Shown: one piece after another, positions 22,468 to 40,088 of the stretch
How the letters are laid out: every line of letters starts with the position of its first letter
Numbering within the stretch: position 1 is the first letter of the stretch
Assembly: GCF_002198735.1 (NCBI RefSeq)
Contig: NZ_MWLO01000152.1
Location: 1 to 51,941 of the forward strand
Direction: 5' to 3'
Origin: Ideonella sp. A 288
GTDB taxonomy: Bacteria > Pseudomonadota > Gammaproteobacteria > Burkholderiales > Burkholderiaceae_C
Length of the DNA stretch: 51,941 nucleotides
Notes under the pieces: generated by a model
The model's database searches: none
What the model saw: the letters and a program-made list of their open reading frames with translations, nothing else
What the model was told of the DNA's origin: nothing
Translations under genes and position numbers: made by a program

Positions 22468-22492
22468 GATCCCGCCGGCCGCCGGGCCGGGC

Positions 22493-25051: not shown

Positions 25052-25088
25052 CACACAGGTTCAGCGTCCCCGAGCGCCGCCACGGCGC

Positions 25089-26594
25089 TCAAACGTCGAA
25101 CCGCACCCCTTGCGCCAGCGGCAGCGCGCGCGAGTAGTTGATGGTGTTGGTGGCGCGGCGCATGTAGTTGCGCCAGGCGTCCGAGCCCGATTCGCGGCCG
25201 CCGCCGGTCTCCTTCTCGCCGCCGAAGGCGCCGCCGATCTCGGCGCCCGAGGTGCCGATGTTGACGTTGGCGATGCCGCAGTCGGACCCGCGCGCCGACA
25301 GGAAGGCCTCGGCTTCGCGCAGGTCGTTGGTGAAGATCGCCGACGACAGGCCCTGCGGCACGCCGTTGTGCAGCGCCATCGCCTCGTCGAAGCTGTCGTA
25401 GCGCAGCAGGTACAGGATGGGCGCAAAGGTTTCGTGGCACACCACCGCCGTCTGCGCCGGCATGCGCACCAGCGCCGGCGCGGCGTACCAGGCATCGTCG
25501 GCGCCGGCGTGCGGCACGCGCTCGCCGCCGCTGACCTGCCCGCCCTGCTCGCGCGCCTGGGCCAGCGCCCACTGCATCGCGTCGAAGGCCGGCTTGTCGA
25601 CCAGCGGGCCCACCAGCACGCCGGGCTCGCGCGGGTCGCCCACCTTCAGGCTGGCGCGGGCGCGCTCCAGCCGCGCGGCCAGCTCATCGTGGAGGCTGGC
25701 GTGGGCGATGACGCGGCGCGTGGTGGTGCAGCGCTGCCCGGCGGTGCCGTAGGCGCCGAAGAGGATGCCGCGCACGGCCATGTCCAGGTCGGCGGTGGGC
25801 GCCACGACGATGGCATTGTTGCCGCCCAGTTCGAGCAGGCAGCGGCCGAAACGCGCCGCCACGCGCGGGCCCACCAGGCGGCCCATGCGGGTGGAGCCGG
25901 TGGCCGACACCAGCGCCACGCGCGGGTCGTCGACCAGCGCCTCGCCCACATCGGCATGGCCGATGAGCACCTGCGACAGGTGCGCTGGGGCCTGCTCGCC
26001 GAAGCGCGCCACCGCGCGCTCGAACAGCGCCTGCGTGGCCAGCGCGGTGAGCGGCGTCTTCTCGCTGGGCTTCCACAGCACCGAATCGCCACAGACCAGC
26101 GCCAGCGCGGCGTTCCAGGCCCACACCGCCACCGGGAAGTTGAACGCGCTGATCACGCCCACCACGCCCAGCGGGTGCCACTGCTCCATCATGCGGTGGC
26201 CGGGGCGCTCGCTGGCGATGGTCAGACCGTGCAACTGGCGCGACAGGCCGACGGCGAAGTCGCAGATGTCGATCATCTCCTGCACCTCGCCCTCACCCTC
26301 GCTGGTGACCTTGCCGGCCTCCAGCGTGACGAGCGCGGCCAGCGCGCGCTTGTGGGTGCGCAGTTCGTCGCCGAACAGCCGCACCAGTTCGCCGCGGCGC
26401 GGCGCCGGCACCTCGCGCCAGGCCGCGAAGGCCTCGTGCGCGGCGCCGATGGCCTGGCGCACCGTGGCGGCACTGGCCACGTGCACCTGCGCCAGCGTGG
26501 CGCCGTCGATCGGCGAGCGCGCGCGCAGCGTGCCGTGGTGCAGGGCCGACTCGGGCACGCCGAGCGAGAGGAGCAGTTCGTGGGCGGTGTTCAT
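25089..26594 (-). CDS. Aldehyde dehydrogenase, ALDH7 / alpha-aminoadipic semialdehyde (piperideine-6-carboxylate) dehydrogenase type
   Basis: A 501-residue NAD(P)-dependent dehydrogenase with ALDH catalytic residues Glu255 (LLELGGNNA) and Cys289 (AGQRCTTTRR). The ISAFNFPVAVWAWNAALALVCGD, GSTRMG and C-terminal GIANVNIGTSGAEIGGAFGGEKETGGGRESG motifs are those of the ALDH7 (antiquitin/AmaB) subfamily, which oxidises alpha-aminoadipate semialdehyde to alpha-aminoadipate in lysine catabolism. The start at 26594 (MNTAHELL) matches homologues; an alternative ATG at 26615 overlaps the upstream TGA by 4 nt. It is coupled to the saccharopine dehydrogenase-family gene. Confidence 0.93.
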   Translation of the reverse strand: MNTAHELLLSLGVPESALHHGTLRARSPIDGATLAQVHVASAATVRQAIGAAHEAFAAWREVPAPRRGELVRLFGDELRTHKRALAALVTLEAGKVTSEGEGEVQEMIDICDFAVGLSRQLHGLTIASERPGHRMMEQWHPLGVVGVISAFNFPVAVWAWNAALALVCGDSVLWKPSEKTPLTALATQALFERAVARFGEQAPAHLSQVLIGHADVGEALVDDPRVALVSATGSTRMGRLVGPRVAARFGRCLLELGGNNAIVVAPTADLDMAVRGILFGAYGTAGQRCTTTRRVIAHASLHDELAARLERARASLKVGDPREPGVLVGPLVDKPAFDAMQWALAQAREQGGQVSGGERVPHAGADDAWYAAPALVRMPAQTAVVCHETFAPILYLLRYDSFDEAMALHNGVPQGLSSAIFTNDLREAEAFLSARGSDCGIANVNIGTSGAEIGGAFGGEKETGGGRESGSDAWRNYMRRATNTINYSRALPLAQGVRFDV

Positions 26595-26611
26595 GCGCGG
26601 GACCTTGGATG

Positions 26612-27706
26612 TCATCCGATCGATTCGACCTGCCGCGACTGCTGGTACGCACTGCCGAAGCGGTTGGCCAGGAAGGCCGGCAACTCTACCTGCTCCTGCC
26701 GGATGAAGCCCCGCTGCGGCAGGTGACCCTCGCGGAACAGGTCCACCGCAGCGCAGATGCCGGCGGCGGTGGTGATCTGGATCGCCGACAGCGGCGCGCC
26801 CTCGGTGCGGTCGGCGAAGATCTTGCGCGCGAACACCTCCTGCATGAAGCTGCCGCCACGCAGGCCGCTGACGGTGACGAACACCAGCACCACGTCCTGC
26901 ATGGTGCCGGGCACGCTGCGGCGCAGGATGTCCTTGAGCGTGCCCTGGTCGTCCTTCAGCTGCAGGTCTTCGAGCAGCAGCTTCATCAGCGCGCAGTGGC
27001 CGGGGTAGCGCACGCTCTTGTAGTCCAGCGTGCGCACGCGCCCTTCGAGCGTTTCGCACAGCGTGCCCAGGCCGCCCGAGGTGTTGAAGGCCTCGTACTC
27101 GGTGCCGTCGAGCGAGAAGTGCTCCAGGCCCTCGAGCGCCAGCACGTCCAGGCGCTCGCCGTCGCGGATGGCCTCGCAGGGGTGGCAGTACTCGTTGATC
27201 AGGCCGTCGACGCTCCAGGTGAGGTTGTACTTCAGCGCATTGGTCGGGAAGGCCGGCAGCGCGCCGACACGCATCTTCACGTCGGTGAGCGTGTCGAAGC
27301 CTTTGGTCAGGTGGTGCGCCACGATGCCGATGAAGCCCGGCGCCAGGCCGCACTGCGGCATGAAGGCGGTGGGGGCGCCGTCGGCCAGCGCCTTGATGGC
27401 CTTGGTGGCGGCCACGTCCTCGGTGAGGTCGAAGTAATGGCAGCGGGCCTCGCGCGCCAGCGTGGCGGTGGCCACGGCCAGGTGGTAGGGCAGCGCGTTG
27501 ACGACCGTGTCGTGGCCCTGCAGCGCGGCCAGCAGCGCGCGGCCGTCTTCGGTGTCGACCTGGCGGGTGGTGACGCCACGGCCCGCGATGCGGGCCAGCG
27601 CGGCGGGGTTCTTGTCCATCACGGTGACCTGGTAGTCACCGCTGTCGCCGAGCAGGCGGGCGATGGTCTGGCCGATGTGTCCGGCGCCGAGCAGGGCGAT
27701 GCGCAT
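26612..27706 (-). CDS. Saccharopine dehydrogenase-family oxidoreductase
   Basis: A 364-residue protein with an N-terminal Rossmann motif (RIALLGAGHIGQTIARLLGD), the VNALPYHLAVATATLARE and YFDLTEDVAAT segments, and a saccharopine dehydrogenase C-terminal domain (MPQCGLAPGFIGIVAHHL, ALPAFPTNALKYNLTWSVDGLINEY). It would convert saccharopine to glutamate plus aminoadipate semialdehyde, the substrate of the next gene's product. The start at 27706 has AGGAG 7 bp upstream. Its TGA overlaps a possible ATG of the ALDH gene. No lysine-ketoglutarate reductase is present in the window, so the enzyme may be bifunctional in pathway terms or its partner may lie elsewhere. Confidence 0.9.
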   Translation of the reverse strand: MRIALLGAGHIGQTIARLLGDSGDYQVTVMDKNPAALARIAGRGVTTRQVDTEDGRALLAALQGHDTVVNALPYHLAVATATLAREARCHYFDLTEDVAATKAIKALADGAPTAFMPQCGLAPGFIGIVAHHLTKGFDTLTDVKMRVGALPAFPTNALKYNLTWSVDGLINEYCHPCEAIRDGERLDVLALEGLEHFSLDGTEYEAFNTSGGLGTLCETLEGRVRTLDYKSVRYPGHCALMKLLLEDLQLKDDQGTLKDILRRSVPGTMQDVVLVFVTVSGLRGGSFMQEVFARKIFADRTEGAPLSAIQITTAAGICAAVDLFREGHLPQRGFIRQEQVELPAFLANRFGSAYQQSRQVESIG

Positions 27707-27726
27707 GGGATTCTCCTGGTGTTCGA

Positions 27727-27820
27727 TTGACGAAAGCGATTGACGGAAGTCTAGGCAGGCCCGATGACGAAAGAAAGCGCAAGTTCGTCGAAACCATCGA
27801 CAATTCGGACGATTCGTCAA
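27727..27820. promoter_or_regulatory. Divergent operator region with repeated TTGACGAA half-sites
   Basis: Between the catabolic genes and the Lrp/AsnC gene there are TTGACGAA (27727-27734), TTGACGGA (27740-27747), ATGACGAA (27764-27771), the inverse TTCGTC (27784-27789) and TTCGTCAA (27813-27820). The outer pair forms a perfect 8-bp inverted repeat. The region is visibly more AT-rich than its surroundings. This is the expected layout for cooperative Lrp-type octamer binding. Confidence 0.6.
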
Positions 27821-27834
27821 CATGGATCGCCGAA

Positions 27835-28272
27835 ATGGCCAAGGACCCCACCGACCGCGCGCTGATCGCCCTGCTGCAGGCCAACGCCCGAGAGAGCACC
27901 GCCAACCTGGCGCGCAAGCTGGGCATCGCGCGCACCACCGTGGTCGCGCGGCTGGCCCGGCTCGAGCGCGACGGCGTCATCGTCGGCTACACCGTGCGCC
28001 TGGGCCAGGACGACGAGCGGCCGCAGGTGCGCGCGCACGTGGGCATCACGCTGCAGCCCAAGACCGCGCGCGACGTGGTGCGGCGGCTGCAGACGCTGCC
28101 CGAGCTGCGGCAGCTCAGCTCGGTGAGCGGCGAGTTCGACTACATCGCCCTGCTGCGCGCCGACACCACCGCGCGGCTCGATGCGCTGCTCGACGAGATC
28201 GGCGAGATCGACGGCGTGCTCAAGACCACCACCTCGGTGGTGCTGGCGGTGCGCATCGACCGCGGCACCTGA
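27835..28272 (+). CDS. Lrp/AsnC family transcriptional regulator
   Basis: A 145-residue protein with an N-terminal winged HTH (DPTDRALIALLQANARESTANLARKLGIARTTVVARLARLERDGVI, residues about 4-48) and a C-terminal RAM (ligand-binding) domain (HVGITLQPKTARDVVRRL...VSGEFDYIALLRADT). The ATG at 27835 puts the HTH at the usual distance from the N terminus; an in-frame ATG at 27763 would add 24 residues read through operator-like DNA. It is divergent from the saccharopine dehydrogenase/ALDH pair, which it probably controls with lysine or a breakdown product as effector (inference). Confidence 0.93.
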   Translation: MAKDPTDRALIALLQANARESTANLARKLGIARTTVVARLARLERDGVIVGYTVRLGQDDERPQVRAHVGITLQPKTARDVVRRLQTLPELRQLSSVSGEFDYIALLRADTTARLDALLDEIGEIDGVLKTTTSVVLAVRIDRGT

Positions 28273-28282
28273 GCCGTCCCGG

Positions 28283-29884
28283 TCAGAGCAGCGACTCGGG
28301 CACGAACAGCGAGATCAGCCACAGGCGCAGCCGCTCCCAGTGGTCGAACTCGGGGTCCTCGTCGAGCGTCTCGGTGCGGCCCTCGCCCAGCAGCGCCACC
28401 CACTGCAGGCTGCGGCCATCGGGCTTAAGGCGCACCTGGTAGGAGCCGCGCACGTCGGCACGCTCCTTCGAGTTGAACCACGCCAGGATCTCGCCGGTCA
28501 GCTCGCGGCTGCGGATCAGCAGCACCATCTCGGTGTTGGTGGTGGCCGAGCGTTGGTCGAGGTTCATCGAGCCCAGCAGCACCGCGCGGCGGTCGATCAG
28601 GGCCAGCTTGGCGTGCAGCTGCGCCCGCGACGCGCCGAACACGCGGCGCGTCGACTCGTCGCGCTGCGCCTGCATCGCGCTCACCTCGTACAGCTCGACG
28701 CCCATCTGCAACAGCGGCACGCGGTAGCGCTCGTAGGCCAGGCTGGCCTGCGGCTCGTCGGTGGCGCCCAGCGAGTTGGTGATCACGCGCACCGCGATGT
28801 TGAACTTGCGCGCCTCGCGCAGGCCGGCCAGGCCGCTCTCGCCGGGGACGAAGTAGGGCGAGAACAGCATCAGTTCCTGGCGCGATTCGCGAAAGCCCTG
28901 CATCGCAAAGCCCGTGGTCGTGGCGGCCAGGGTGACCGCCGGGCGATCGAGCTTGGCCGGCGCGTCGGCGAACACCGTGGCCTCGGCCCCGATCAGGCCC
29001 GGCAAGTCGTCGGCCAGCAAGGCGTCGAACCGCGGCGTGGTCCGGCCGCGCCAGGTGGCCGGCGCCACGAAGGGCGGCGCGCGCTTTTGCGTGGCCGCCT
29101 CGAAGCGCGCGCGCAGCGTCGGTGCCGGCTCGTCGGGCGCGGCCAGCGTCGCGATGTCGCGCACCTGCGCGCTGTTCCAGTACCGATCGAACACGGCGGC
29201 CAGTTCCGGCACCACCGCGCCGATGGCCAGCGCGTCGAAGTCGATGAAGTTGGCGCCGGCGTCGCGCTGGAAGTAGCCGTCGGCCAGGTTGCGCCCGCCG
29301 ACGATGGCCATCGTGCCATCGGCGATGAACAGCTTGTTGTGCATGCGGTGGTTCAGGCGCCGGAAGTCGCCGGCCATCTGCATCCAGCGCGCCAGGCTGC
29401 TGCCGCGCGCCCAGGCAAAGGGGTTGAACAGGCGCACCTGCGCCCCGTCATGCACCGCCAGGCCGAGCAGCAGGCCGTCCATGCCCGCGGTGTGGAAGTC
29501 GTCGATCAGCAGGCGCACGCGCACGCCGCGCAGCGCGGCGTCGCGCAGGGCGCGCAGCACCTCGTGGCCCACGCTGTCGTCGGCCAGGTGGTAGACCTGC
29601 AGGTCGATCGAGGCCCTTGCCTGGCGGATCAGGCTCAGGCGGGCATCGAGCGCCAGGCCCGGGTGGGCCATGCTCAGCACGCCCGTCGGGCCCTGGCCGC
29701 GCACACGCTCGGCAGCCCGGGCGGCGACGGCGCCGAGCGGCGTGCCGGTACTGGCCGCGATCGCCAGGCTGGGTGGGGACGCCAGCGACGGCGGCAGGCC
29801 GGCGCAGCCGCCGAGCAGCAGGGGCAGCAGGGGCAGCAGCAGGGCCGGCAGCAGCCAGGACAGCGAGAACGGGCCGAAGCTCAT
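28283..29884 (-). CDS. Phospholipase D-like (cardiolipin synthase-type) lipoprotein
   Basis: A 533-residue protein with two HKD motifs: His182-x-Lys (MHNKLFIADGTMAIVGGRN) and His424-x-Lys (LHAKLALIDRRAVLLGSMN), the paired active site of PLD/cardiolipin synthase enzymes. The N terminus is a lipoprotein signal (LLPALLLPLLPLLLGGC, lipobox LGGC at Cys27), so it is predicted to be anchored to the membrane facing the periplasm. This is unlike integral Cls enzymes but like YmdC/ClsC-related periplasm-facing PLDs. It is convergent with the Lrp gene, with 10 bp between stops. Likely phosphatidyl transfer or hydrolysis; the exact reaction is unknown. Confidence 0.9.
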   Translation of the reverse strand: MSFGPFSLSWLLPALLLPLLPLLLGGCAGLPPSLASPPSLAIAASTGTPLGAVAARAAERVRGQGPTGVLSMAHPGLALDARLSLIRQARASIDLQVYHLADDSVGHEVLRALRDAALRGVRVRLLIDDFHTAGMDGLLLGLAVHDGAQVRLFNPFAWARGSSLARWMQMAGDFRRLNHRMHNKLFIADGTMAIVGGRNLADGYFQRDAGANFIDFDALAIGAVVPELAAVFDRYWNSAQVRDIATLAAPDEPAPTLRARFEAATQKRAPPFVAPATWRGRTTPRFDALLADDLPGLIGAEATVFADAPAKLDRPAVTLAATTTGFAMQGFRESRQELMLFSPYFVPGESGLAGLREARKFNIAVRVITNSLGATDEPQASLAYERYRVPLLQMGVELYEVSAMQAQRDESTRRVFGASRAQLHAKLALIDRRAVLLGSMNLDQRSATTNTEMVLLIRSRELTGEILAWFNSKERADVRGSYQVRLKPDGRSLQWVALLGEGRTETLDEDPEFDHWERLRLWLISLFVPESLL

Positions 29885-30004
29885 GGGCGTCGATTCTCCG
29901 GCGCACCCGGCCCGGCCGCCGACGGTGTGTCAAAAGCGCCCGGGCACGACCGTACCCTGGGCCTGGCCGCCGTCCCGCAGCGCATGGCACGGTGCCTTGG
30001 CCGC

Positions 30005-30868
30005 TCACTCCTTGTAGTAGACGATCTGGTGTGTGCTGGCCAGCAGCGCGCCGTCGTGCGCCCAGACCTCGGCCGACTGGTCGAAGAAGCCCTTGCCGAA
30101 GCGCTGCGCGCGGGCCACGCCCAGCACCGGCTGCGTGCCGTGCGCGGCCAGCATCGGCGCGTCGGCATGGAAGTAGATGGTCATCGACACCGTGCCGGCC
30201 GGCGTCCATTGCCGGCGGCGCAGGTAGATGCGCGGGAAGAACACGTCGCACAACGCGGTGAGCGACGCGAAGTCGAGCGGCCGTGGCGGCTCGTCGCGCA
30301 TCCACAGCGTGGTGGTGGCGTCGGCATCGGCGCGGCCCTGCGAAAAGTCGGGGAAGCCGCCCGAGACGAAGCGCATCTCGTACTGCCGCGTCCAGGCCAC
30401 GCGGCCCAGCGGCGGCAGCGCTGGCACCGCCCCGGCGGCGGGCACCGCGGGAAAGCCGATCTCGGTGGACGCCCAGGTCTCGCGCCGCACGCCGAACACC
30501 GCGGTGGCGCTGACGGCCACCTGGCCGTCCTGCCGCAGCTCGGCGCGCCAGTGCTGGGTGGAGCGGTTGGTGCGCAGCGGCTCGGCCTGCACGCTGAAGG
30601 GCCCGTCGGCCACCGGCCCGGCGTAGTTGACAGTGAGCGCCAGCGGCTCGCCCAGCCGCGCCGGGTGGCCGCGCATGGCCTGCACCAGGGTGGCCGCGGT
30701 GATGCCGCCGAAGGGCCCGATCATGTTCGCGTAGGCCGGGCTGGTGTGGCCTGTGACGCTGCCGTCGCCCTCGGGCTGCAGCACCAGGGCCGCATCGAGC
30801 GGATGCATCGGCGGCGGCGCGGCGGCGGGGCCATCGGCCGGATCGATCGGTGCGGTCGTGCGGGTCAA
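30005..30868 (-). CDS. Acyl-CoA thioesterase family protein (TesB-like double hotdog)
   Basis: A 287-residue protein from a TTG start at 30868, chosen because AGGAG lies 6 bp upstream and the TTG overlaps the previous gene's TGA (TTGA). An ATG at 30808 is the alternative, with no ribosome-binding site. Two hotdog halves are visible: SPAYANMIGPFGGITAATLVQAM...VNYAGPVADGPFSVQAEPLRTNRSTQHWRAEL and, in the second, TVSMTIYFHADAPML...FGKGFFDQSAEVWAHDGALLASTHQIVYYKE. This matches acyl-CoA thioesterases of the TesB/4HBT_3 group. It is the last gene of a three-gene operon. Confidence 0.88.
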   Translation of the reverse strand: MTRTTAPIDPADGPAAAPPPMHPLDAALVLQPEGDGSVTGHTSPAYANMIGPFGGITAATLVQAMRGHPARLGEPLALTVNYAGPVADGPFSVQAEPLRTNRSTQHWRAELRQDGQVAVSATAVFGVRRETWASTEIGFPAVPAAGAVPALPPLGRVAWTRQYEMRFVSGGFPDFSQGRADADATTTLWMRDEPPRPLDFASLTALCDVFFPRIYLRRRQWTPAGTVSMTIYFHADAPMLAAHGTQPVLGVARAQRFGKGFFDQSAEVWAHDGALLASTHQIVYYKE

Positions 30869-32691
30869 CGGCGTCTCCTGGCGGGCGCGGGCGTGGCGGC
30901 GTGCGCGGTGGCGGGCTTGGTGCTGTTCGCGGGTGCTCGCACGTTCTGGCGCGGTGGCGAGGTGGGCGTCCGCCGCGGCTCGAACCGCAGCGCCCGGGCC
31001 TCGGCCCGCAGCCCGGCGCGGTCGATGGCGCGCAGCACGTAGGCGTCGTGCCACAGGTCGGCCACCTCGGACGGCCGCGCATCCCACATCGACGCCGGGA
31101 CTTCGTCGACCAGGGCCCGCAAGGCCGGCCAGGCGGGCGCCAGTGCCACGCGATCGACACCGGGCTGGCGCAGGCAGTGGTCGGCCAGCGTCAGCAGCAT
31201 CGGCGTGTCGATGCGGCGCAGGCGCCGGCCGGACCACAGCGCTGCCAGCGCGTCGCGCAGCGCGGCGGCGGGTGCGAACTGCGCGAGCAGCGGCAGTCGG
31301 TGGACGACCTGCACCGCCGTGCGCGGCTCCGGCAAGGCCGCCAACATCGACGGCAGTGTGTCGCGCAGAGCCCGGCCTCGGCGGGTGACTCGCCAGCGCC
31401 GCAGCCACTCGGCCGCCTCGGTGCTGCCGGCCTGGGCCAGCGCGGCCAGGCCGGTGGCGGCGTCGAGTTCGGCGCCCGCCCCCTCGGCACCGGCCTCGTC
31501 GCTCGCCGGCACCCCCTGCAAGGCCTGCTGGCACAGCGCCAGCGCCGCCGCCGCATGCCAGGCCCGGGCGCTGCGCCAGGCCGGGCGGGCGGCCTCGGGG
31601 TGGCGGCCCAGGGCCACCACCAGGGCCAGGTGCAGCGCCGCGGGGTGCTCCACCTCCATGCGATCGGGCTGCCGGCGTGCCGCCTGGGCAAAGTGCAGCA
31701 ACTCGTCGGCGGGCGATGCCGCGGCCACGCCAGGCTCGGCCACCGCGCCGCGCTCTGCGACGAGGCCGCGCTGGCCCAGGTGCGGCGCCAGGTCGTCGCC
31801 GGTGTGCAGCGGCAGCGCACCGGCCGGACGGCGGGCGATGTCCAGCAGGCGGACCCGCTCGGCGCCCAGCGCCAGCGACAGCCCGGCGTCATAACGGTGC
31901 AACTGCTCGGCCATGGGCTCGGGGCCGTACTTCTCCTCGAAGCGCAGGCGGGGCGTGGAGAGCAGGCGGTTGAGCTTGTCGTCCACCGCATCCTGCATCG
32001 CGGCCAGGCGCGGGTCGGCCGCGCCTTCGTGGTTGGCGGCCTCGGGCTGCAGCGCGCGCCGCAGTTCCAGCCACTGGGCGCGCCGCCAGGCCACGGACAG
32101 CGGCTCGTCGTCGCCGCGCGGCCCGCAGCCGGCGAGCCGGCGCTCGACCTCGTCCACGTCCACCGCACCGTCGCGCACGGCCTCGTAGCCGATGGCCTGC
32201 AGCACCGCCATCTCGCCGGTCCAGCGCTTGCGGCAGGTGTCGTGGTAGTACTCGCGGCAGGCCAGCGGGCGCGCCGGGTGCACGCTGCACACGCGCCGCG
32301 GCGTGCCGTCGGGCTCGGCGATGTACTTCAGGAACAGGCACGGGCTGGCCGCATCCAGCGTGCGCCGGCGCAGGAAGCTGACGACGCTGCTGCCGGGGTC
32401 GGCCAGCCATTGCCGGTAGCGCTCGCCGTCGGCGCCGTCGAAGCGGTCCTGCGTGAAGAGGCGGAAGAACTCGGCCGGCGGCAGGTCGAGCGCGGCGCAC
32501 AGCCGCAGCACGTCGAAGGCTGTGAGCGCGATCGGGCCCTCGGTGGTGCAGCAGGTGCCGCCCAGGCAGCGCTCGCAGATGGCGCGTTCGTCGCGCGGCG
32601 GCTGCTGCGCGTCGGCGCGGGCCGGGTAGCGGCGGTCGGGGCCGTGCAGCGGCTGCCAGTCGGAACCAGGGGGTGCGGCGGGGTCGCTCAT
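30865..32691 (-). CDS. YkgJ-type cysteine-cluster protein with long C-terminal extension
   Basis: A 608-residue protein. The N-terminal 160 residues carry the YkgJ (Zn/Fe-chelate-binding) pattern: Cys39-x2-Cys42-x4-Cys47-Cys48 (CERCLGGTCC), Cys118 (SPCLFLKY), Cys135 (RRVCSVHPARPLAC, with Cys145) and Cys153. YkgJ proteins usually have only 100-250 residues. Here about 400 further residues, Ala/Leu/Arg-rich and apparently helical, follow with no recognisable domain and a basic Arg/Pro-rich tail (PAPARRRR). It sits 47 bp after the cyclase-fold gene and overlaps the thioesterase start. A metal or Fe-S role is inferred from the family; the extension is unexplained. Confidence 0.8.
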   Translation of the reverse strand: MSDPAAPPGSDWQPLHGPDRRYPARADAQQPPRDERAICERCLGGTCCTTEGPIALTAFDVLRLCAALDLPPAEFFRLFTQDRFDGADGERYRQWLADPGSSVVSFLRRRTLDAASPCLFLKYIAEPDGTPRRVCSVHPARPLACREYYHDTCRKRWTGEMAVLQAIGYEAVRDGAVDVDEVERRLAGCGPRGDDEPLSVAWRRAQWLELRRALQPEAANHEGAADPRLAAMQDAVDDKLNRLLSTPRLRFEEKYGPEPMAEQLHRYDAGLSLALGAERVRLLDIARRPAGALPLHTGDDLAPHLGQRGLVAERGAVAEPGVAAASPADELLHFAQAARRQPDRMEVEHPAALHLALVVALGRHPEAARPAWRSARAWHAAAALALCQQALQGVPASDEAGAEGAGAELDAATGLAALAQAGSTEAAEWLRRWRVTRRGRALRDTLPSMLAALPEPRTAVQVVHRLPLLAQFAPAAALRDALAALWSGRRLRRIDTPMLLTLADHCLRQPGVDRVALAPAWPALRALVDEVPASMWDARPSEVADLWHDAYVLRAIDRAGLRAEARALRFEPRRTPTSPPRQNVRAPANSTKPATAHAATPAPARRRR

Positions 32692-32738
32692 GTCGTGCGG
32701 AGGTCCGATGGACAGGGTGGGGGCTGCCCGGCGCGCGC

Positions 32739-33710
32739 TCACGCTCGGCGGGCCCAGGCCTGCAGTTGCGGCAGCACCTCGGGGAAGGCGAGCCGGGGGC
32801 CGGTCCAGCGGTAGTCGCGCAGGCCGTCGATGGCCGCCCAGGCGGCGTGGAAGCCGGTGTAGAAGCTGTCGGCGTCCCAGGTGCCCCAGCTGCCGTCGGC
32901 GTTCTGGCTGTCGACCAGGAACTGCGCGCCCATGCGCACCTGGGTGTCGTCGTGCGGCACGCCGAAGGCCCGCAGCGTGTCGAGCAGTTCGCCGGTCAGG
33001 TCGGCGTCGGCGTCGGCGATGGCCTCGGGCAGCGCGGCGCGCAGGAACATGTACTCGTCGGGCAGCCAGCGCGGGTCGAGCGTGCTGTGGCCGTAGTCGT
33101 TGAGGGTGTAGACCACATGGGTGACGGAGTAGGCCACGTCGTGGAAGCGGCGCCGCGACTGCCGCCACGCGATGTCGTAGGGCCGCATGCGCGGCAGCCA
33201 GCACAGCACGTCGGCATAGCGCGCGCCCAACGGCACGCCGTAGCGCTCGCCGCACCAGGCCGAGGTGAGGCCGATGCACCAGGTGCGGTAGGCGCCCTCG
33301 CGGGCCACGGCCGGCGGCCCTCGGTCGGCGTCGAAGCCGATGAAGGCCCTCGAGCCGAAGGGCCGCGCGGCCTCGACCAACCACTCGCGCATGCCTTCGC
33401 GGCGCAGGCCCAGGCCTTCGCCGGCGCCATAACCGCGCACCGCCTCGGCCACCCAGTCGGGGTGGCGGAAGTCCGCCGCCTCGAGCGTGGACCGCTCCCA
33501 CAGCGCGAAGGCGTGGCGGCCCAGCAGCCGGGCGGTGCGGCGCAGCGCGTCGTCGGCCGAGGTGCGGGCCATCGAGCGCAGCGAATAGAGCAGCCCGGTG
33601 CCCAGGTGGGCCAGCAACGCGTCGTCGGCCGCGGCTTCGGCGATGAAGCGCATGCCCTTGCGGATGGCCCGCTGCCGCGCGGTGGCCAGGCGCCGGTCGA
33701 GGGCGGTCAT
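32739..33710 (-). CDS. Terpenoid cyclase/prenyltransferase-fold (alpha/alpha toroid) protein
   Basis: A 323-residue protein. Near the C terminus SQNADGSWGTWDADSFYTGFHAAWAAIDGL (about residues 268-297) is a QW-type repeat of squalene-hopene-cyclase/prenyltransferase alpha/alpha toroids; weaker repeats precede it. It is about half the length of a full squalene cyclase and lacks an obvious DxDD protonation motif, so it may be a non-catalytic or differently acting toroid. Start at ATG 33710. It is the first gene of an operon with the YkgJ-type protein and a thioesterase, and is divergent from the Pro-Lys-Leu repeat gene. Confidence 0.72.
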   Translation of the reverse strand: MTALDRRLATARQRAIRKGMRFIAEAAADDALLAHLGTGLLYSLRSMARTSADDALRRTARLLGRHAFALWERSTLEAADFRHPDWVAEAVRGYGAGEGLGLRREGMREWLVEAARPFGSRAFIGFDADRGPPAVAREGAYRTWCIGLTSAWCGERYGVPLGARYADVLCWLPRMRPYDIAWRQSRRRFHDVAYSVTHVVYTLNDYGHSTLDPRWLPDEYMFLRAALPEAIADADADLTGELLDTLRAFGVPHDDTQVRMGAQFLVDSQNADGSWGTWDADSFYTGFHAAWAAIDGLRDYRWTGPRLAFPEVLPQLQAWARRA

Positions 33711-33781
33711 CGACCGGCCGGGTCGCCGAGCGCGACCCGTGAGGACGTCGTCCGCACGGCGCAAACCGCGTGGCCCATCAA

Positions 33782-33810
33782 TTGACACTGCATGGGGCGG
33801 GTCCTACATT
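33782..33810 (+). promoter_or_regulatory. Strong sigma-70 promoter of the Pro-Lys-Leu repeat gene
   Basis: TTGACA (33782-33787, perfect -35) is followed by a 17-bp spacer and TACATT (33805-33810, 4/6 -10 match). It predicts a transcript starting about 33817 with a leader of about 85 nt. It is the best promoter match I saw in the window. Confidence 0.7.
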
Positions 33811-33856
33811 GCGCGTGCGTGACGGGCTCATCTCGAGCATGAGGTCACGGAGGTAG

Positions 33857-33910
33857 ATGGCGCCTCACCATTCATGTCGTGTCCACAAGAAAGGATGGCT
33901 CTCATGGTAA
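33857..33910 (+). CDS. Possible 17-residue leader peptide overlapping the next start
   Basis: GGAGG (33849-33853) is followed by an ATG at 33857 opening MAPHHSCRVHKKGWLSW, which stops at TAA 33908-33910, just inside the start of the downstream frame (ATG 33904). The spacing of 3 nt after GGAGG is short. It could couple translation or be fortuitous. Confidence 0.25.
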   Translation: MAPHHSCRVHKKGWLSW

Positions 33911-34191
33911 CGGGTCCAGGTGTTCCCAAGCTGCCGCCGAAGCTGCCGAAAACGCTGCCGAAGCTGCCCCCGAAACTTCCGAAGTTGCCGCCCAAGCTGC
34001 CCAAGCTTCCGCCCAAGCTGCCCAAGGTGCCACCCAAGCTTCCGCCGAAGCTGCCGCCCAAGCTCGATCCCAAGCTGATCCCCAAGGTCCTGCCGAAGAT
34101 CGTGCCGAAGCTGCTGCCCAAGCTGCCCAAGGTCTTGCCCAAGCTGCCGAAGGTGCTGCCCAAGATCGGCCCCGATCCCGGCCCGTTCTGA
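33904..34191 (+). CDS. Pro-Lys-Leu repeat protein (PKLP repeats), unknown family
   Basis: A 95-residue protein, almost entirely degenerate PKLP/PPKL/PKVLPKL units from residue 8 to 88. By count it has 33 Pro, 22 Lys and 20 Leu, with only two acidic residues and no Cys, Trp, Tyr or His; net charge is about +20. The short C-terminal cap is IGPDPGPF. I choose ATG 33904 because AAGGA lies 8 bp upstream; ATGs at 33874 and 33895 would add 10 or 3 residues. There is no signal peptide. Evidence that this strand is the coding one: a near-consensus promoter at 33782 and a classic terminator at 34225. Proline every two to four residues argues against long helices, and the alternating Lys/Leu is amphipathic, which suggests nucleic-acid, polyphosphate or membrane binding (inference). 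No known family fits. Confidence 0.65.
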   Translation: MVTGPGVPKLPPKLPKTLPKLPPKLPKLPPKLPKLPPKLPKVPPKLPPKLPPKLDPKLIPKVLPKIVPKLLPKLPKVLPKLPKVLPKIGPDPGPF

Positions 34192-34200
34192 CGGACGAGC

Positions 34201-34248
34201 GAGGCCTGCCGCAGGCCTCGGCGAAGGCGCCCCGCGGGGCGCCTTTTT
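34201..34248 (+). terminator. Tandem hairpins and rho-independent terminator
   Basis: A first perfect stem, GAGGCCTGC/GCAGGCCTC (34201-34219), is followed by AGGCGCCCCG/CGGGGCGCCT (34225-34244) and a run of five Ts. The T run follows on the plus strand, so it terminates the repeat-protein gene. The ubiH-like gene on the other strand stops 6 bp beyond. Confidence 0.88.
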
Positions 34249-34253
34249 CATGG

Positions 34254-35459
34254 TCAGCGCCGGCCGTACATCATCTGCCGGGCCAGCGCGCTCTTGAGGG
34301 CCGGCATCGACTGCAGCGCGGCCAGGCCCAGCCCGCGCACCGCCGGCAGGCCGGGCCAGCGCCAGGTGAAGCTGCGCGCCAGGAAATCGGTGGCGGCGAT
34401 CATGGCCCAGCGGTCGGGCGCGCGTGCCCATTCGACGCGGCGCAGGGCGGCGCGCAACGCGGCATCGCCGGGGGCATCGACGCGTCGCAGCGCCTGCACC
34501 AGCGAGAACGCATCGCGCAGGCCGAGGTTGAGGCCCTGACCGGCCACCGGGTGCAGCGTCTGCGCTGCGTTGCCGATGCGCACCGTGCAGCCGTCGACCA
34601 GCGTGCGCTCGGCGTTCAGGCCGAGCGCGAAGCGCTTCAGCGGCCCCAGGGCGACCACGCGGCCGGCCTCGGCCGGCAGGCGCGTGGCCAGCACGGCCAG
34701 GCGCTGCGCATCGTCGAGCTCGGCCACGGGGTCGTCGTCGGCGCCCACGCACCACACCATCGAGCCGCGGGCGCGGCCCTCGGCATCGGGGCGCAGCGGC
34801 AGCAGCGCCAGCGGGCCGTTGCGCGTGAAGCGCTCCACTGCCAGGCCTGGCACCGCACCCTCCAGCATCACCGTGCCCACCCACGCCGCCTGCTTGTAGT
34901 CGTGGGTGACGGCCTTGCGCGACTGGTCGGAGAAGACACCGCCCTCGGCCACCACCGCCAGGTCGAAGCGCTCGACCACGCCGGCATCCACCTCGACGCC
35001 ACCATCGTCGAGCGGCTTGACGACCGCCACCGCCGTGCCGAAGCGCGAGGCCAGCCGCTGCGGCTCGCGCGCCACGGCGGCCTGCCAGGCGGCCTGCATC
35101 GGTGCGACGAGCTGGCCATAGCTGAGCACTGCGCCCAGCATCGGCACCGCCTCGTCGATGGCGCGGATGCGCACGGCCGGCTCACCGCCGCCGAAATCCA
35201 GCGTGGGCGGCGCCTGCGACACATGCACCTGCAGGATGGGCTGGGCCAGGTCGGCCGGCCACACGTCCAGCCGCTGCAGCAGTTGCACGCTGCCCAGCGA
35301 CATGGCCAGGGTGCGCGGGTCGCCCGCCACGTCCTTGTCCGCCGGCCGGGCGTCGAACAGCGTGATGTGCGCCGCCGGCAGCAGGCGCGCCGCATGCAGG
35401 GCCAGGGCCAGGCCGGCCGGCCCGGCGCCGATGACGGCGATGTCGAGTTGGGGAGTCAT
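34254..35459 (-). CDS. FAD-dependent monooxygenase, UbiH/UbiF/VisC family
   Basis: A 401-residue aromatic-ring hydroxylase. Motifs: the N-terminal Rossmann DIAVIGAGPAGLALALHAARL, the central DLAVVAEGGVFSDQ (DG-like motif), and the C-terminal RIGNAAQTLHPVAGQGLNLGLRDAFSLVQAL, the strongly conserved FAD-ribityl/ubiquinone-hydroxylase signature. It probably hydroxylates a polyprenyl benzenoid in ubiquinone biosynthesis; which ring position cannot be told from the sequence. The start at 35459 faces the SPFH operon across 57 bp (divergent). Confidence 0.9.
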   Translation of the reverse strand: MTPQLDIAVIGAGPAGLALALHAARLLPAAHITLFDARPADKDVAGDPRTLAMSLGSVQLLQRLDVWPADLAQPILQVHVSQAPPTLDFGGGEPAVRIRAIDEAVPMLGAVLSYGQLVAPMQAAWQAAVAREPQRLASRFGTAVAVVKPLDDGGVEVDAGVVERFDLAVVAEGGVFSDQSRKAVTHDYKQAAWVGTVMLEGAVPGLAVERFTRNGPLALLPLRPDAEGRARGSMVWCVGADDDPVAELDDAQRLAVLATRLPAEAGRVVALGPLKRFALGLNAERTLVDGCTVRIGNAAQTLHPVAGQGLNLGLRDAFSLVQALRRVDAPGDAALRAALRRVEWARAPDRWAMIAATDFLARSFTWRWPGLPAVRGLGLAALQSMPALKSALARQMMYGRR

Positions 35460-35516
35460 GGTCGTATTATTCGCCGCACCCCGGATCGTCGGGGCGCCAC
35501 ACCGAAGGAGCACCTC

Positions 35517-36569
35517 ATGGGCCTGATGGACTTCATCAAGAAACAGTTCATCGACATCCTCGAATGGACCGAATCGGGCGACGGTGTGCTGGCCTGGCGC
35601 TACCCGATGGCCGACAACGAGATCCAGTACGGCGCGTCGCTCACCGTGCGCGAAAGCCAGATGGCGGTCTTCGTCAACGAGGGCAAGGTGGCCGACGTCT
35701 TCGGCCCCGGCATGTACAAGCTCACCACGCAGACGCTGCCGGTGCTGACCTACCTGAAGAACTGGGACAAGCTGTTCGAGAGCCCGTTCAAGAGCGACGT
35801 GTACTTCTTCAGCACGCGCCAGCAGATCGACCAGCGCTGGGGCACGCAGCAGCCGGTGACCATCCGCGACAAGGATTTCGGTGCCGTGCGGCTGCGCGCC
35901 TTCGGCAACTACGCCTACCGCATCGTCGACCCGAAGAAGCTGCACACCGAGATCTCGGGCACGCGCGACACCTACACCGTGGCCGACCTGGACGGCCAGC
36001 TGCGCGGCCTGATGCTGCAGCACATCAGCGACGCGGTGGCGCAAAGCGGCATCGCCTTCCTCGACCTGGCGGCCAACCAGATCGAGTTCGCCAAGCAGCT
36101 GCGCGAGGCCACCGCGCCGTCGTTCGAGGCGCTGGGCCTGGCGCTCGAGAGCGTCACGGTGCAGAACGTCTCGCTGCCCGAGGAACTGCAGAAGATCCTC
36201 GACCAGAAGATCGGCATGGGCATGGTCGGCAACGACATGGGCAAGTTCATGCAGTACCAGACGGCGCAGGCGATCCCGAAGTTCGCCGAGGGCGCGGGCG
36301 GCGGCGGCGGTGGCATCGCCGGCGACGCGATGGGCCTGGGCGCCGGCGTGGCGCTGGGGCAGGTGCTGGCACAGAACCTCCAGCAGGGACTGCAGGGCGG
36401 TGGTGCAGCCGCGGCAGCGGCAGCGGCGGCCGCACCGGCCGCTGCGGCGCTGAAGCCCGACGAGATCATGGCCACGCTCGAGAAGCTGGGCGAGCTCAAG
36501 GCCAAGGGCATCCTCACCGACGACGAGTTCTCTGCCAAGAAGGCCGAGCTGCTGAAGAAGCTGGTCTGA
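35517..36569 (+). CDS. SPFH-SHOCT protein (YdjI / 'virion core protein' family)
   Basis: A 350-residue protein with AAGGAG before ATG 35517. Residues about 1-240 form an SPFH/band-7-like domain of the YdjI type (MGLMDFIKKQFIDILEW, VFGPGMYKLTTQTLPVL, RDTYTVADLDGQLRGLMLQHISDAV, ALESVTVQNVSLPEELQKIL). A Gly/Ala-rich stretch (about 259-312) leads to a C-terminal SHOCT domain (IMATLEKLGELKAKGILTDDEF...). In Bacilli, YdjI acts with PspA/YdjF-type membrane-stress proteins. It is the first gene of the cluster with DUF4178, DUF350 and spermidine-synthase-like genes. It probably scaffolds them at the cytoplasmic face of the membrane (inference). Confidence 0.92.
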   Translation: MGLMDFIKKQFIDILEWTESGDGVLAWRYPMADNEIQYGASLTVRESQMAVFVNEGKVADVFGPGMYKLTTQTLPVLTYLKNWDKLFESPFKSDVYFFSTRQQIDQRWGTQQPVTIRDKDFGAVRLRAFGNYAYRIVDPKKLHTEISGTRDTYTVADLDGQLRGLMLQHISDAVAQSGIAFLDLAANQIEFAKQLREATAPSFEALGLALESVTVQNVSLPEELQKILDQKIGMGMVGNDMGKFMQYQTAQAIPKFAEGAGGGGGGIAGDAMGLGAGVALGQVLAQNLQQGLQGGGAAAAAAAAAAPAAAALKPDEIMATLEKLGELKAKGILTDDEFSAKKAELLKKLV

Positions 36570-36607
36570 GCATCCGCGCCGGTTCCTTGCCCGGGTAGCC
36601 CGCCCCC

Positions 36608-38179
36608 TTGGCCACCTCACCGCAGCGCGTCTGGCGCGCCGCCTGCCCCAACTGCGGCGCACCGGTCGACTTTGCCTCGGCCGCGTCGGCCAGCGCCGTC
36701 TGCGGCTTCTGCCGCTCCACGCTGCTGCGCGACGGCGAGGCGCTCAAGCGCATCGGCCAGAGCGCCGAGCTCTTCGACGACCACTCGCCGCTGCAGATCG
36801 GCGCGGCCGGCCGCTACATGGGCTCGGCCTTCACCGTGGTGGGCCGCCAGCAGCTGGGCGACGACCAGAGCCGCTGGACCGAATGGCATGTGCTGTTCGA
36901 CGGGGAGGCGGCCACCCGCAGCGGCTGGCTGTCGGAGGACAACGGCGCCTACGTGATGGCCTTCGACGCGCCGATCACCGGCCCGCTGCCGGCGCCCGAC
37001 GAACTGGTCGCGGGGGAGCAGCGGCTGGTCAATGGTGCGATCTGGTCGGTGGCCTCGCTGATGCAGGCGCGGGTGCTGGCGGCCCAGGGCGAGTTGCCCG
37101 CGCCGCCGCGGCTGGAGGGCCCGCCCTTCCCCATCGCCGACCTGCGCAACACGATGGGCGAGGTGGCCACGCTCGACTGGCGCGACCCGGCCCGGCCCGG
37201 CTGGTCGGTGGGCCGCGCCGTGCGGCTGGCCGAGCTGGCGATGAGCGGCCTGCGCGAGGTGGCCGAGAAGACGCTGGCCGGCCGCAGCATCGCCTGCCCC
37301 AGTTGCGGCGCCTCGCTCGAGCCCAAGCTGTCGACGACGCAGTCCATCGTCTGCGGCCAGTGCCAGGCGGTGGTCGACGTCTCGCAAGGCATCGGGGGCG
37401 AGCTGCGGCACTACGCGCAGGACAACCCGGGCCTGCCGCCGCAGATCCCGCTGGGCCGCACCGGCACGCTGCAGCTCGGCGCGCGCGCACCGGCACTGCC
37501 CTGGCAGGTGGTGGGCTATGCCGAGCGCTGCGAGGTCGACGTCGACCCCGGCGAAGAGCAGACCGCCTGGCGCGAGTACCTGATGTACCACCGCGAGGAG
37601 GGCTTCGCCTTCCTGGTCGATTCGGAAGACGGCTGGAGCTTCGCGCGCCCCGTCACCGGCGTGCCGCAAGTGCGCGGCGACCGCGCCACCTGGCAGGGCA
37701 AGACCTACGACAAGCTGTACAGCTACACCGGCGCGGTGACGCACGTGCTGGGCGAGTTCTACTGGCGCCTGACTCGCGGCGAACGCACCCGCAACACCGA
37801 CTTCGCCAGTGGCCCGCTGCGCCTGAACCGCGAGCAGGTGGGCAACGAGGTCACCTGGTCGGCCGGCGAGGCACTGGACGCCACCGTGGTGGCCAAGGCC
37901 TTCGGCCTGGGCACGGTGGAGGCCGCGGCCATCCGCCGCGACGTGACCCCGCTGTCGACCATGCCGGCAGGCACCAAGCTGCGCTGGATCGTCATCGCGC
38001 TGGTCGTCGTCTTCGTGCTGCCCACCCTGCTCAGCATGTGCAGCAGCGACGACTGCGACAGCACCCGCTCGGCCTTCGGCGAATCGAGCAACGAATACCA
38101 GCAGTGCCTGCGCAACCGCAGCAGCGGCTCGCGCGGGGGATCGTTCGGCGGCTTCAGCTCTGGCGGCGGCCACAAGTAG
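36608..38179 (+). CDS. DUF4178 zinc-ribbon membrane protein
   Basis: A 523-residue protein from a TTG start at 36608; an in-frame stop lies just upstream and no other suitable start exists. Zinc ribbons: Cys13-x2-Cys16...Cys32-x2-Cys35 (CPNCGAPVDF...CGFC) and Cys230-x2-Cys233...Cys249-x2-Cys252 (CPSCGASLEP...CGQC). Two DUF4178 beta domains follow the ribbons (FTVVGRQQLGDDQSRWTEWHVLF and WQVVGYAERCEVDVDPGEEQTAWREYLMYH). One transmembrane helix lies near the C terminus (WIVIALVVVFVLPTLLSMC, about 459-477), followed by a Ser/Gly-rich tail. It lies 38 bp after the SPFH gene and 22 bp before the DUF350 gene. The biochemical role is unknown. Confidence 0.9.
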   Translation: MATSPQRVWRAACPNCGAPVDFASAASASAVCGFCRSTLLRDGEALKRIGQSAELFDDHSPLQIGAAGRYMGSAFTVVGRQQLGDDQSRWTEWHVLFDGEAATRSGWLSEDNGAYVMAFDAPITGPLPAPDELVAGEQRLVNGAIWSVASLMQARVLAAQGELPAPPRLEGPPFPIADLRNTMGEVATLDWRDPARPGWSVGRAVRLAELAMSGLREVAEKTLAGRSIACPSCGASLEPKLSTTQSIVCGQCQAVVDVSQGIGGELRHYAQDNPGLPPQIPLGRTGTLQLGARAPALPWQVVGYAERCEVDVDPGEEQTAWREYLMYHREEGFAFLVDSEDGWSFARPVTGVPQVRGDRATWQGKTYDKLYSYTGAVTHVLGEFYWRLTRGERTRNTDFASGPLRLNREQVGNEVTWSAGEALDATVVAKAFGLGTVEAAAIRRDVTPLSTMPAGTKLRWIVIALVVVFVLPTLLSMCSSDDCDSTRSAFGESSNEYQQCLRNRSSGSRGGSFGGFSSGGGHK

Positions 38180-38201
38180 CACACACAGGAGGTCAACGAC
38201 C

Positions 38202-38423
38202 ATGGGATTCGAATGGCTCAAACCGGCCGTCGTGCTGGGATCAGTGATGTACGCCGTCATCGGCGTGGTGGTGCTGTGGGTCAGTTTCGTCGTCATCGAC
38301 AAGCTCACCCCGTACAAGCTCTGGGACGAGATCGTCGAGCACAAGAACGTGGCACTGGCCATCGTGGTGGCGGGCATGTTCATCGCCATCGGGCAGATCG
38401 TGGCGGCGGCGATCCATGGCTGA
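38202..38423 (+). CDS. DUF350 (YjfL-like) small membrane protein
   Basis: A 73-residue protein with two transmembrane helices (VVLGSVMYAVIGVVVLWVSFVVID, about 9-32, and ALAIVVAGMFIAIGQIVAAAI, about 51-71). The charged linker LTPYKLWDEIVEHKN between them matches DUF350, of which E. coli YjfL is a longer duplicated form; here there is a single unit. AGGAGG lies 8 bp before the ATG. It sits in the SPFH-DUF4178 operon. DUF350 genes often neighbour PspA-like and glutathionylspermidine-synthase-like genes; I infer a membrane partner for the polyamine enzyme that follows. Confidence 0.92.
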   Translation: MGFEWLKPAVVLGSVMYAVIGVVVLWVSFVVIDKLTPYKLWDEIVEHKNVALAIVVAGMFIAIGQIVAAAIHG

Positions 38424-38430
38424 GCCCGGA

Positions 38431-38495
38431 CACGGCACAGCACCTGCGTGCTGTGCCGTGCCTGGCGAAGCGGCCGCGCATGCAAAGCGCGGCCG
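38431..38495 (+). other. Two consecutive strong intra-operon hairpins
   Basis: The first hairpin is a perfect 13-bp stem CACGGCACAGCAC/GTGCTGTGCCGTG with loop CTGC (38431-38460). The second is a perfect 9-bp stem CGGCCGCGC/GCGCGGCCG with loop ATGCAAA (38471-38495). They fill the 87-bp gap between the DUF350 gene and the spermidine-synthase-like gene and end 15 bp before its ATG. No T run follows, so these are not ordinary terminators. They may be an RNA processing, attenuation or translation-control element. Confidence 0.7.
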
Positions 38496-38510
38496 TGGAC
38501 GATTGCCACA

Positions 38511-40088
38511 ATGGCCGTCGACGCACTGACACCGGCGCCCTCCGCCGTCGCGCGCATCGCACCAGCCGAGGTGGCGCTGCTCGCGTCGGTGTTCGTCGTG
38601 GCCGCCTGCGGGCTGGTCTACGAGCTGGCCGCCGGCGCGCTGGCCAGCTACCTGCTGGGCGATTCGGTGCTGCAGTTCTCCACCGTCATCGGCGCCTACC
38701 TGTTCGCGATGGGCATCGGCTCGTGGCTTTCGCGCCATGTCGAGCGGCAGCTGGTGGCGCAGTTCCTGCGCATCGAGCTGCTGGTGGGGCTGATCGGCGG
38801 CCTGCTGCCGGCGGCGCTGTTCACCGCGCACAGCCTGCTGCCTGCCGGCCATGGACACTCCTTTCGCGTGTTGCTTTACGGCCTGGTGCTGGCGGTGGGC
38901 ACGCTGGTGGGGCTGGAGATCCCGCTGGTCATGCGCATCCTCAAGCGCCACTTCCATGAACGCTATGCACTGAAAGACCTGGTCTCTCAGGTGCTCACCT
39001 TCGACTACCTCGGCGCGCTGGTGGTGTCGGTGGCCTTCCCGCTGCTGCTGGTGCCGCACCTGGGGCTGATCCGCACCGGCGTGTTCTTCGGGCTGCTCAA
39101 CACCGCGGTGGCGGTGTGGGCGCTGTGGCTCTTCCGCGCCGAGCTGCGCGCCTGGCGCGGGCATGCGCTGGCCTGCGCCGCGGTGGTGGCCGCGCTGCTG
39201 GCGGCGATGGCCGGCGCCGACCGGCTGACCACCTGGTCGGAGGACCGCTTCTACGGCGACCGCGTGGTGCTGCGCGAGACCAGCCCCTACCAGCGCGTGG
39301 TGGTCACCGCCGGGCCGGCCGGCGTGCGGCTGTTCCTCAACGGCAACCTGCAGTTCCATTCGCGCGACGAGTACCGCTACCACGAGGCCCTGGTGCACCC
39401 GGCGATGGCCGCGCACGGCGCGCCCAAGCGCGTGCTGGTGCTGGGCGGCGGCGACGGCATGGCGGTGCGCGAGGTGCTGCGCCACCCCGGCGTCGAGCAG
39501 GTGACGCTGGTCGAGCTCGATCCGCACATGACGCGGCTGTTTGCCGAGATGCCGATGCTCACCGCGCTGAACGGCGGTGCGTTGACGTCGCCCAAGGTCG
39601 AGATCGTCAACGCCGACGCCTTCGCCTGGCTCGAAGGCCACGAGCGCCGCTTCGACGTGATCGTGGTCGACTTCCCCGACCCCACCAGCTTCTCGCTCGG
39701 CAAGCTCTACTCCACCAGCTTCTACCAACTCGTCGACCAGCACCTGGCGGCCGGCGGCTATGCGGTGGTGCAGACCACCTCGCCGCTGCTCGCGCGCAAG
39801 AGCTTCTGGACGGTGGTGACCACGATCGAGGCCACCGGCCTGACCGCCACGCCCTACCATGCCCACGTGCCCAGCTTCGGCGAATGGGGCTTCGTGCTGG
39901 CCAGCCGCCGGCCCTGGCGCCTGCCGCCGGTGCTGCCCGAGGGCCTGCGCTTCCTCACGCTCGCGGGGCTGCCGGCGCTGCTGCAGTTTCCGCCCGACAT
40001 GGCGCGGGTGGCGGCCGAGCCCAACCGGCTGTCGAACCAGACGCTGGTGCACACCTTCGAAGAGGAATGGGGCAAGGTTCTGGAGTGA
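38511..40088 (+). CDS. Membrane-anchored polyamine aminopropyltransferase (spermidine synthase-like)
   Basis: A 525-residue protein with about six to seven transmembrane helices in residues 15-230 (VALLASVFVVAACGLVYEL, YLFAMGIGSWLSRHV, VLTFDYLGALVVSVAFPLLL and others), then a cytosolic SpeE-type domain. The substrate/SAM motifs are LQFHSRDEYRYHEALVHP, VLVLGGGDGMAVREVL and LVELDPHMT, and the catalytic aspartate region is VVDFPDPTSFSLGKLYSTSFY. It would transfer aminopropyl from decarboxylated SAM to a diamine or related amine. The membrane-fused form is typical of stress-associated clusters rather than housekeeping spermidine synthesis. It lies in the SPFH/DUF4178/DUF350 operon. Confidence 0.93.
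   Translation: MAVDALTPAPSAVARIAPAEVALLASVFVVAACGLVYELAAGALASYLLGDSVLQFSTVIGAYLFAMGIGSWLSRHVERQLVAQFLRIELLVGLIGGLLPAALFTAHSLLPAGHGHSFRVLLYGLVLAVGTLVGLEIPLVMRILKRHFHERYALKDLVSQVLTFDYLGALVVSVAFPLLLVPHLGLIRTGVFFGLLNTAVAVWALWLFRAELRAWRGHALACAAVVAALLAAMAGADRLTTWSEDRFYGDRVVLRETSPYQRVVVTAGPAGVRLFLNGNLQFHSRDEYRYHEALVHPAMAAHGAPKRVLVLGGGDGMAVREVLRHPGVEQVTLVELDPHMTRLFAEMPMLTALNGGALTSPKVEIVNADAFAWLEGHERRFDVIVVDFPDPTSFSLGKLYSTSFYQLVDQHLAAGGYAVVQTTSPLLARKSFWTVVTTIEATGLTATPYHAHVPSFGEWGFVLASRRPWRLPPVLPEGLRFLTLAGLPALLQFPPDMARVAAEPNRLSNQTLVHTFEEEWGKVLE

Follow-up and report, generated by a model that had tools for sequence, protein, structure and literature searches.

Ideonella sp. A 288 carries a short open reading frame (ORF) whose predicted product, here termed the PKL repeat protein, is made almost wholly of proline, lysine and leucine. 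The locus raises the question of whether this ORF is a real gene and, if it is, whether it stands alone or belongs to a larger unit. The window referred to throughout is the whole stretch of DNA that was analysed, 51,941 nucleotides in length. At the level of sequence it was established that the ORF has the anatomy of a gene and that the same divergent arrangement, with homologous neighbours, is present in Tahibacter soli, a member of the Gammaproteobacteria (Lysobacterales).

The repeat gene, its reading frame and its expression signals

The PKL repeat ORF (33904-34191, plus strand) encodes 95 amino acids and ends with TGA. An earlier note on this DNA had given the composition as 33 Pro, 22 Lys, 20 Leu and two Asp with a net charge of about +20, and translation of the ORF returned the same counts and a net charge of +20. 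Proline, lysine and leucine together reach 89% in an 80-residue stretch of the product compared to a mean of 17% and a maximum of 37.5% elsewhere, the comparison set being 55,338 stop-free stretches of 80 amino acids from the six-frame translation of the window. Chance is excluded as the source of this composition. Proline precedes lysine in 22 of 22 cases, while the residue following lysine is Leu, Val or Ile in 21 of the 22 and Thr once. The protein matched no known family in Pfam, NCBIfam, PADLOC or PHROGs, in line with the earlier note, whose author knew of none with such a composition. The histone-H1-like Lys/Ala/Pro proteins of Burkholderiales are small Lys/Pro-rich polycations as well. 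The PKL protein differs from them in being rich in leucine, in its PK[LVI] repeat and in having no alanine among its 95 residues, so the earlier distinction from these Ala-rich proteins stands. A second Lys-rich stretch was seen at 1597-1836 of the window (plus strand), with 18 Lys in 80 residues and two Cys/Lys repeats. It presumably resembles a PsiF-type repeat protein.

Every frame at the locus is of low complexity and the reading frame was therefore tested in three ways. Six coding segments nearby served to train codon log-odds, and the summed synonymous score of the PKL frame was +38.3, compared to -2.3, -62.3, -32.5, +6.6 and -77.2 for the other five. The next best frame (+6.6) is antisense and the open Ala/Glu/Gln-rich forward frame scored -62.3. 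GC content at the third codon position (GC3) was 0.86 in the PKL frame compared to 0.41 in the Ala/Glu/Gln-rich forward frame. The ORF in that forward frame (33879-36569) passes through the terminator and then runs antisense to ubiH. Where two 30-base segments shared at least 80% identity, the lag between them was always a multiple of three (46, compared to 0 and 0). Mismatches between repeat copies numbered 76, 44 and 121 on codon positions 1, 2 and 3, respectively, as counted in overlapping windows that are not independent. The Tahibacter repeat gene agrees less sharply, with codon log-odds of +63.3 for the repeat frame and +41.4 for the best other frame, which is antisense.

A wrong frame, with the locus holding an off-frame Ala/Glu/Gln-rich gene, a gene on the opposite strand or a repeat without coding function in place of this protein gene, is extremely unlikely. 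It would account for the open forward +2 frame, which reads QAAAEAA, and for reverse frames that are open and of low complexity. It also draws on the PKLP-like matches in other bacteria that proved to be off-frame readings, and on the DNA alignment with the Tahibacter gene, which has no third-position excess (32, 25 and 34, each of 88) and is uninformative on the frame. Codon choice, GC3, start, Shine-Dalgarno, stop and terminator all speak against it, as does the agreement of the Tahibacter gene. The frame proposed in the earlier note fits each of these and is retained. The PKL ORF looks convincingly like a real gene, and codon choice favours the PKL frame.

Four PKLP-like matches were rejected as off-frame readings. 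Those from plasmids of Comamonas and Borrelia fall in genes whose annotated frames are Ala/Glu/Gln-rich and Ala/Glu-rich. In the two Lachnospiraceae contigs, longer ORFs with TQSPTQT repeats had been read out of frame on the same strand. Ala/Glu repeats such as GCC GAA GCT GCC give a PKLP-like reading in another frame, and Ala/Glu-rich repeat genes that mimic PKLP off frame were observed at L059 (1-1704) and L058 (5637-7451). Ala/Glu-rich genes read off frame are a general trap for low-complexity ORF calls.

A sigma70-type promoter, TTGACA-N17-TACATT, lies at 33782-33810 on the plus strand (10/12 match). It is the sole sigma70-type match in positions 20000-39999 of the window (shuffles: 0.5 ± 0.7) and in 33000-35200 (shuffles: 0.0 ± 0.2). 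A Shine-Dalgarno-like sequence, AAGAAAGGA (33887-33895, plus strand), was read 8 nt upstream of the ATG at 33904, which was taken as the start; in-frame ATGs at 33895 and 33874 are possible alternatives. Folding placed two hairpins at 34200-34248 (plus strand), which are a probable intrinsic terminator. The second hairpin (34223-34246) has 10 bp and runs into TTTTT. The fold 3' of the stop has an energy of -37 kcal/mol and a z-score of -2.98, and none of 200 shuffles was equally stable. The hairpin stretch at 34224-34253 recurs at 88-100% identity elsewhere in several related genomes, as a generic terminator would. The gene thus appears to have the promoter and T-tailed terminator of its own that had been described for it, though a simple terminator scanner reported no site at the 34200-34248 hairpins. 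A structured 5' leader or known RNA found no support: the leader was no more stable in folding than shuffled sequences (z 0.34), and there was no Rfam match at gathering thresholds.

The divergent neighbours and their counterparts in Tahibacter soli

The PKL protein was used in a peptide-pattern scan of an 84,980-species collection, from which records nearest its own genome were possibly left out. The scan returned 457 pattern stretches, of which three were confirmed by tblastn and one was credible, that of Tahibacter soli. This species was not among the same-genus genomes searched. Its repeat gene encodes 134 amino acids with a net charge of +35, beginning MPAGPKLPKLAKLPPAKLAKLPP, the start being chosen by its Shine-Dalgarno. 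Lysine is followed by Leu, Ile or Phe in 32 of 32 cases and preceded by Ala in 20, Pro in 10 and Thr in two. Repeat spacing and the choice of Pro or Ala vary; the lysine-aliphatic pair hardly varies.

In the window the repeat gene is divergent from two minus-strand genes that together span 30865-33710. The Tahibacter repeat gene is likewise divergent from a homologue of the nearer one, the toroid gene (2e-106, with 50% identity across 342 columns). Next to that homologue comes a counterpart of the cysteine-cluster gene (50% over 363, 1e-100), in the same order as in the window. The Tahibacter promoter, TTGACT-N17-TACAGT, is the counterpart of that in the window, and the distance from the -10 element to the ATG is 91 nt compared to 94 nt in the window. 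A strong hairpin without a T tail is found 3' of the Tahibacter stop (z -3.08, 3 of 200 shuffles equally stable). MAFFT alignment of the upstream regions leaves the two promoters unaligned, and leader conservation beyond the promoter is not clear. The genes outside are a thioesterase and a ubiH-type FAD protein in the window and, in Tahibacter, a 2038-amino acid ORF that is RHS-like by eye, among others. As the flanking genes differ, the shared unit is the three genes. Judged by gene order and homology, this is a rare three-gene cassette of the repeat gene with divergent toroid and cysteine-cluster genes, and the two in Ideonella and Tahibacter soli are those known. The repeat gene is therefore not stand-alone, contrary to the earlier note. 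That note had also pointed to ppk1 in the same window, a link that found no support: ppk1 is at 16662-18875, about 15 kb away. A limited literature search, covering the best-ranked open PMC papers, found no description of the cassette.

The toroid gene (32739-33710, minus strand) encodes a 323-amino acid protein classed as DUF6895-like or squalene-cyclase-repeat-like from profiles, motifs and a predicted helical model. The model, built from a two-sequence alignment, is all-helical with a pLDDT of 66 and a pTM of 0.68. The Tahibacter homologue scores 26.8 bits against DUF6895 (PF21836) compared to a cut-off of 23.8. The window gene scored 33 bits, above the cut-off, in a six-frame search and was not listed by hmmscan with the protein. 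In the toroid homologues the match covers profile positions 166/167-250 of 289, about 84 in all. The likeness to DUF6895 is in the region of YxxTHx6D[YF]G, DxDLxxE and QxxxGSW, motifs common to all four proteins aligned, and THx6D[YF]G and DxDL are also present in proteins well above the cut-off. One title in the reference list of PMC13352647 refers to a lasso-peptide epimerase in DUF6895. In contrast to such a system, no lasso genes were recognised beside the toroid gene, and the Tahibacter repeat protein has no Asp or Glu acceptor for a macrolactam ring.

The toroid protein is also like the C-terminal repeats of squalene-hopene cyclases (PF13243) in its QxxxGSWG repeat and helical prediction. 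It differs in being about half as long as the solved cyclases, in scoring below the PF13243 cut-off (25.4 compared to 26.1) and in having no terpene genes among its annotated neighbours. A fold search with the model gave no matches at E ≤ 0.001; the top Foldseek row was a cyclase with a weak E value of 0.049. Besides the toroid protein, Ideonella sp. A 288 has a bona fide member of DUF6895 (173.6 bits; L068 7923-9347, minus strand, contig C100 of G000), which carries YAFTHLMFYCTDFG and DYDLSAE. Two further DUF6895 proteins above the cut-off (L054 796-1929 and L055 1480-2547) have a membrane-anchor-like N-terminus by eye. Their genes, from two genomes of one genus in the same class, adjoin a conserved membrane-like ORF of 444-451 amino acids.

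The second neighbour (30865-32691, minus strand) encodes a 608-amino acid cysteine-cluster protein with an N-terminal CX2CX4CC and C-x-x-HP-x-RP-x-x-CREYY, the cluster being followed by CSVHPARPLACREYY. It is 50% identical to its Tahibacter counterpart over roughly the first 370 residues, and eight cysteines are invariant between the two. Both proteins missed the cut-off of 23 for PF03692 (CxxCxxCC), scoring 17.6 in the window and 22.8 in Tahibacter. The structure model was unusable (pLDDT 40). To our knowledge the nearest worked-out enzyme is FliB. The fliB gene is located near that of its flagellin substrate, much as the gene for a Lys-rich protein is near the cysteine-cluster gene here, although the putative substrate is not flagellin. 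FliB is reported to have eight highly conserved cysteines; lysine methylation depends on its N-terminal CX4CX3CC, which binds [4Fe-4S] and which the authors liken to PF03692 (PMC8598068). The cysteine-cluster protein resembles FliB and PF03692 (YkgJ) in its N-terminal Cys cluster and eight conserved cysteines. The FliB spacing CX4CX3CC is absent from both homologues, which have CX2CX4CC instead, and the likeness to FliB is one of motif description. For the longer C-terminal half there is no counterpart in the PF03692 family.

Possible functions of the repeat protein

Both repeat proteins are without Cys, Glu, His, Gln, Ser, Trp and Tyr, which leaves lysine as the sole plentiful reactive side chain. 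Without Cys, cysteine-based thioether or thiazole chemistry is out, and the two Thr in each protein set a limit on hydroxyl chemistry. A lasso ring is ruled out for the Tahibacter protein, which has neither Asp nor Glu. What is left is chemistry on lysine, proline or the backbone, so lysine modification by the cysteine-cluster protein is the preferred reading.

We tentatively propose, at somewhat less than even confidence, that the PKL protein is made on the ribosome and serves as the substrate of two dedicated modifying proteins encoded in the cassette. As looked for in a RiPP cassette, a short gene is conserved beside two shared neighbours in two genomes, and these neighbours are putative modification enzymes. 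By analogy with FliB, the 608-amino acid CX2CX4CC protein would modify lysines in the [P/A]-K-[L/I/V] context, most simply by N-methylation. The DUF6895-like toroid protein may bind the extended PKL peptide or epimerise its residues. The outcome would be a polycation that is more hydrophobic and resists proteases, and that acts in the cytoplasm or after release.

Several observations count against this proposal. Because just two cassettes are known, the function is read from the neighbourhood. The cysteine protein falls short of PF03692 with a spacing unlike that of FliB, and the window toroid protein is missing from the hmmscan DUF6895 listing, with only about 84 of the 289 profile positions matched. 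Neither a transporter nor a protease of RiPP type was recognised next to the repeat gene, by Pfam for the window neighbours and by eye for Tahibacter. A clear RiPP leader is absent, with only about 4-7 residues before the first PK in both repeat proteins. By the filters used, none of eight other DUF6895-type regions (9.5-17 kb each) had a small ORF rich in Lys and Pro or a neighbour with a cysteine cluster. A wider claim, that this is a new class of protein polycation or ribosomal natural product combining FliB-like iron-sulfur lysine modification with DUF6895-like backbone epimerisation, is unlikely. If modified, the repeat protein would offer dozens of almost identical modification sites in one gene-encoded polymer, and would be handy for work on DUF6895 enzymes and on iron-sulfur lysine methylation of the FliB type. 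Even unmodified, it indicates that a conserved gene cassette can be flagged by an ORF of extreme low complexity, a kind that tends to be masked or dismissed.

The main rival to lysine modification is an unmodified polycation that binds a polyanion or a membrane. In the rather unlikely case of a cytoplasmic polycation, the protein would bind or condense with nucleic acid or polyphosphate, and its neighbours would use it as a scaffold or be co-regulated with it. The net charges of +20 and +35, with two acidic residues in the Ideonella protein and none in that of Tahibacter, are consistent with this, and no signal-like N-terminus was seen by eye. The near-constant [P/A]-K-aliphatic context and the conserved toroid and cysteine-cluster genes would be left unexplained, and for polyphosphate the distance to ppk1 is a further objection. 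The extended amphipathic polycation envisaged in the earlier note is possible, with the two conserved neighbours unaccounted for.

It is improbable that the protein is a membrane-active Lys/Leu polymer, directed against competitors in the manner of a bacteriocin or against the producer as a toxin, with the operon providing maturation or self-protection. Lysine and leucine do alternate, with proline, and the Tahibacter units KLAKLPPA presumably resemble the designed KLAKLAK membrane-active peptides. No exporter or immunity-like membrane gene was recognised, however, by Pfam in the window or by eye in Tahibacter, and PADLOC and PHROGs were empty for the window's two neighbours and both repeat proteins. 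A structural or surface role is very unlikely. The regular extended repeat could serve as a proline-rich spacer or as a biomineral or silica-type polycation, which may carry methyl groups like those of diatom silaffins. Against this, neither an export signal nor a cell-wall motif was seen by eye.

Distribution and genomic setting

The locus DNA was searched against 40 genomes (own included). Ten had a match and no repeat-gene homologue was found. Twelve rows came from genomes other than the own; nine of these fell on the terminator hairpins (query positions about 506-554) and the other three on short repeat or mixed stretches. The PKL protein was found in its own genome only among 21 same-genus genomes, and the PKLPPKLP DNA pattern, at four sites, in its own genome only among 299 family genomes (own included in both).

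The toroid protein was present in one of the 21 same-genus genomes (own included). Its profile matched three of 369 class genomes (own and two weak matches, G439 and G555), one of 399 order genomes and two of 197 Tahibacter-family genomes (Tahibacter and one weak partial match); plasmids, phages and viral contigs gave none. The cysteine protein was found in one of 398 phylum genomes at E ≤ 1e-8 and was absent from the plasmids and viral contigs searched. These genome samples overlap, own and query genomes are counted, and few candidates were scored per genome, so that members were possibly missed. No repeat proteins were confirmed in viral contigs, and none for the Tahibacter repeat protein in plasmids. 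The sparse distribution of the cassette would fit horizontal transfer or frequent loss.

On the other side of the terminator is the ubiH-type FAD gene (34254-35459, minus strand), which is conserved in the relatives read. By filter, no PK-rich ORF was present within about 1.5 kb on the cassette side of ubiH in 17 relatives, one of whose flanks ends after about 60 bases. One relative (G018) has ubiH and its 5'-side genes in common with the window. Its cassette side contains nothing from 26-34 kb of the window and only weak matches to 46-48.6 kb. The cassette may have been inserted beside ubiH. The 3' side of the ubiH-type gene varies across most of the 17 relatives (L021-L037), which makes it a variable spot in the genus.
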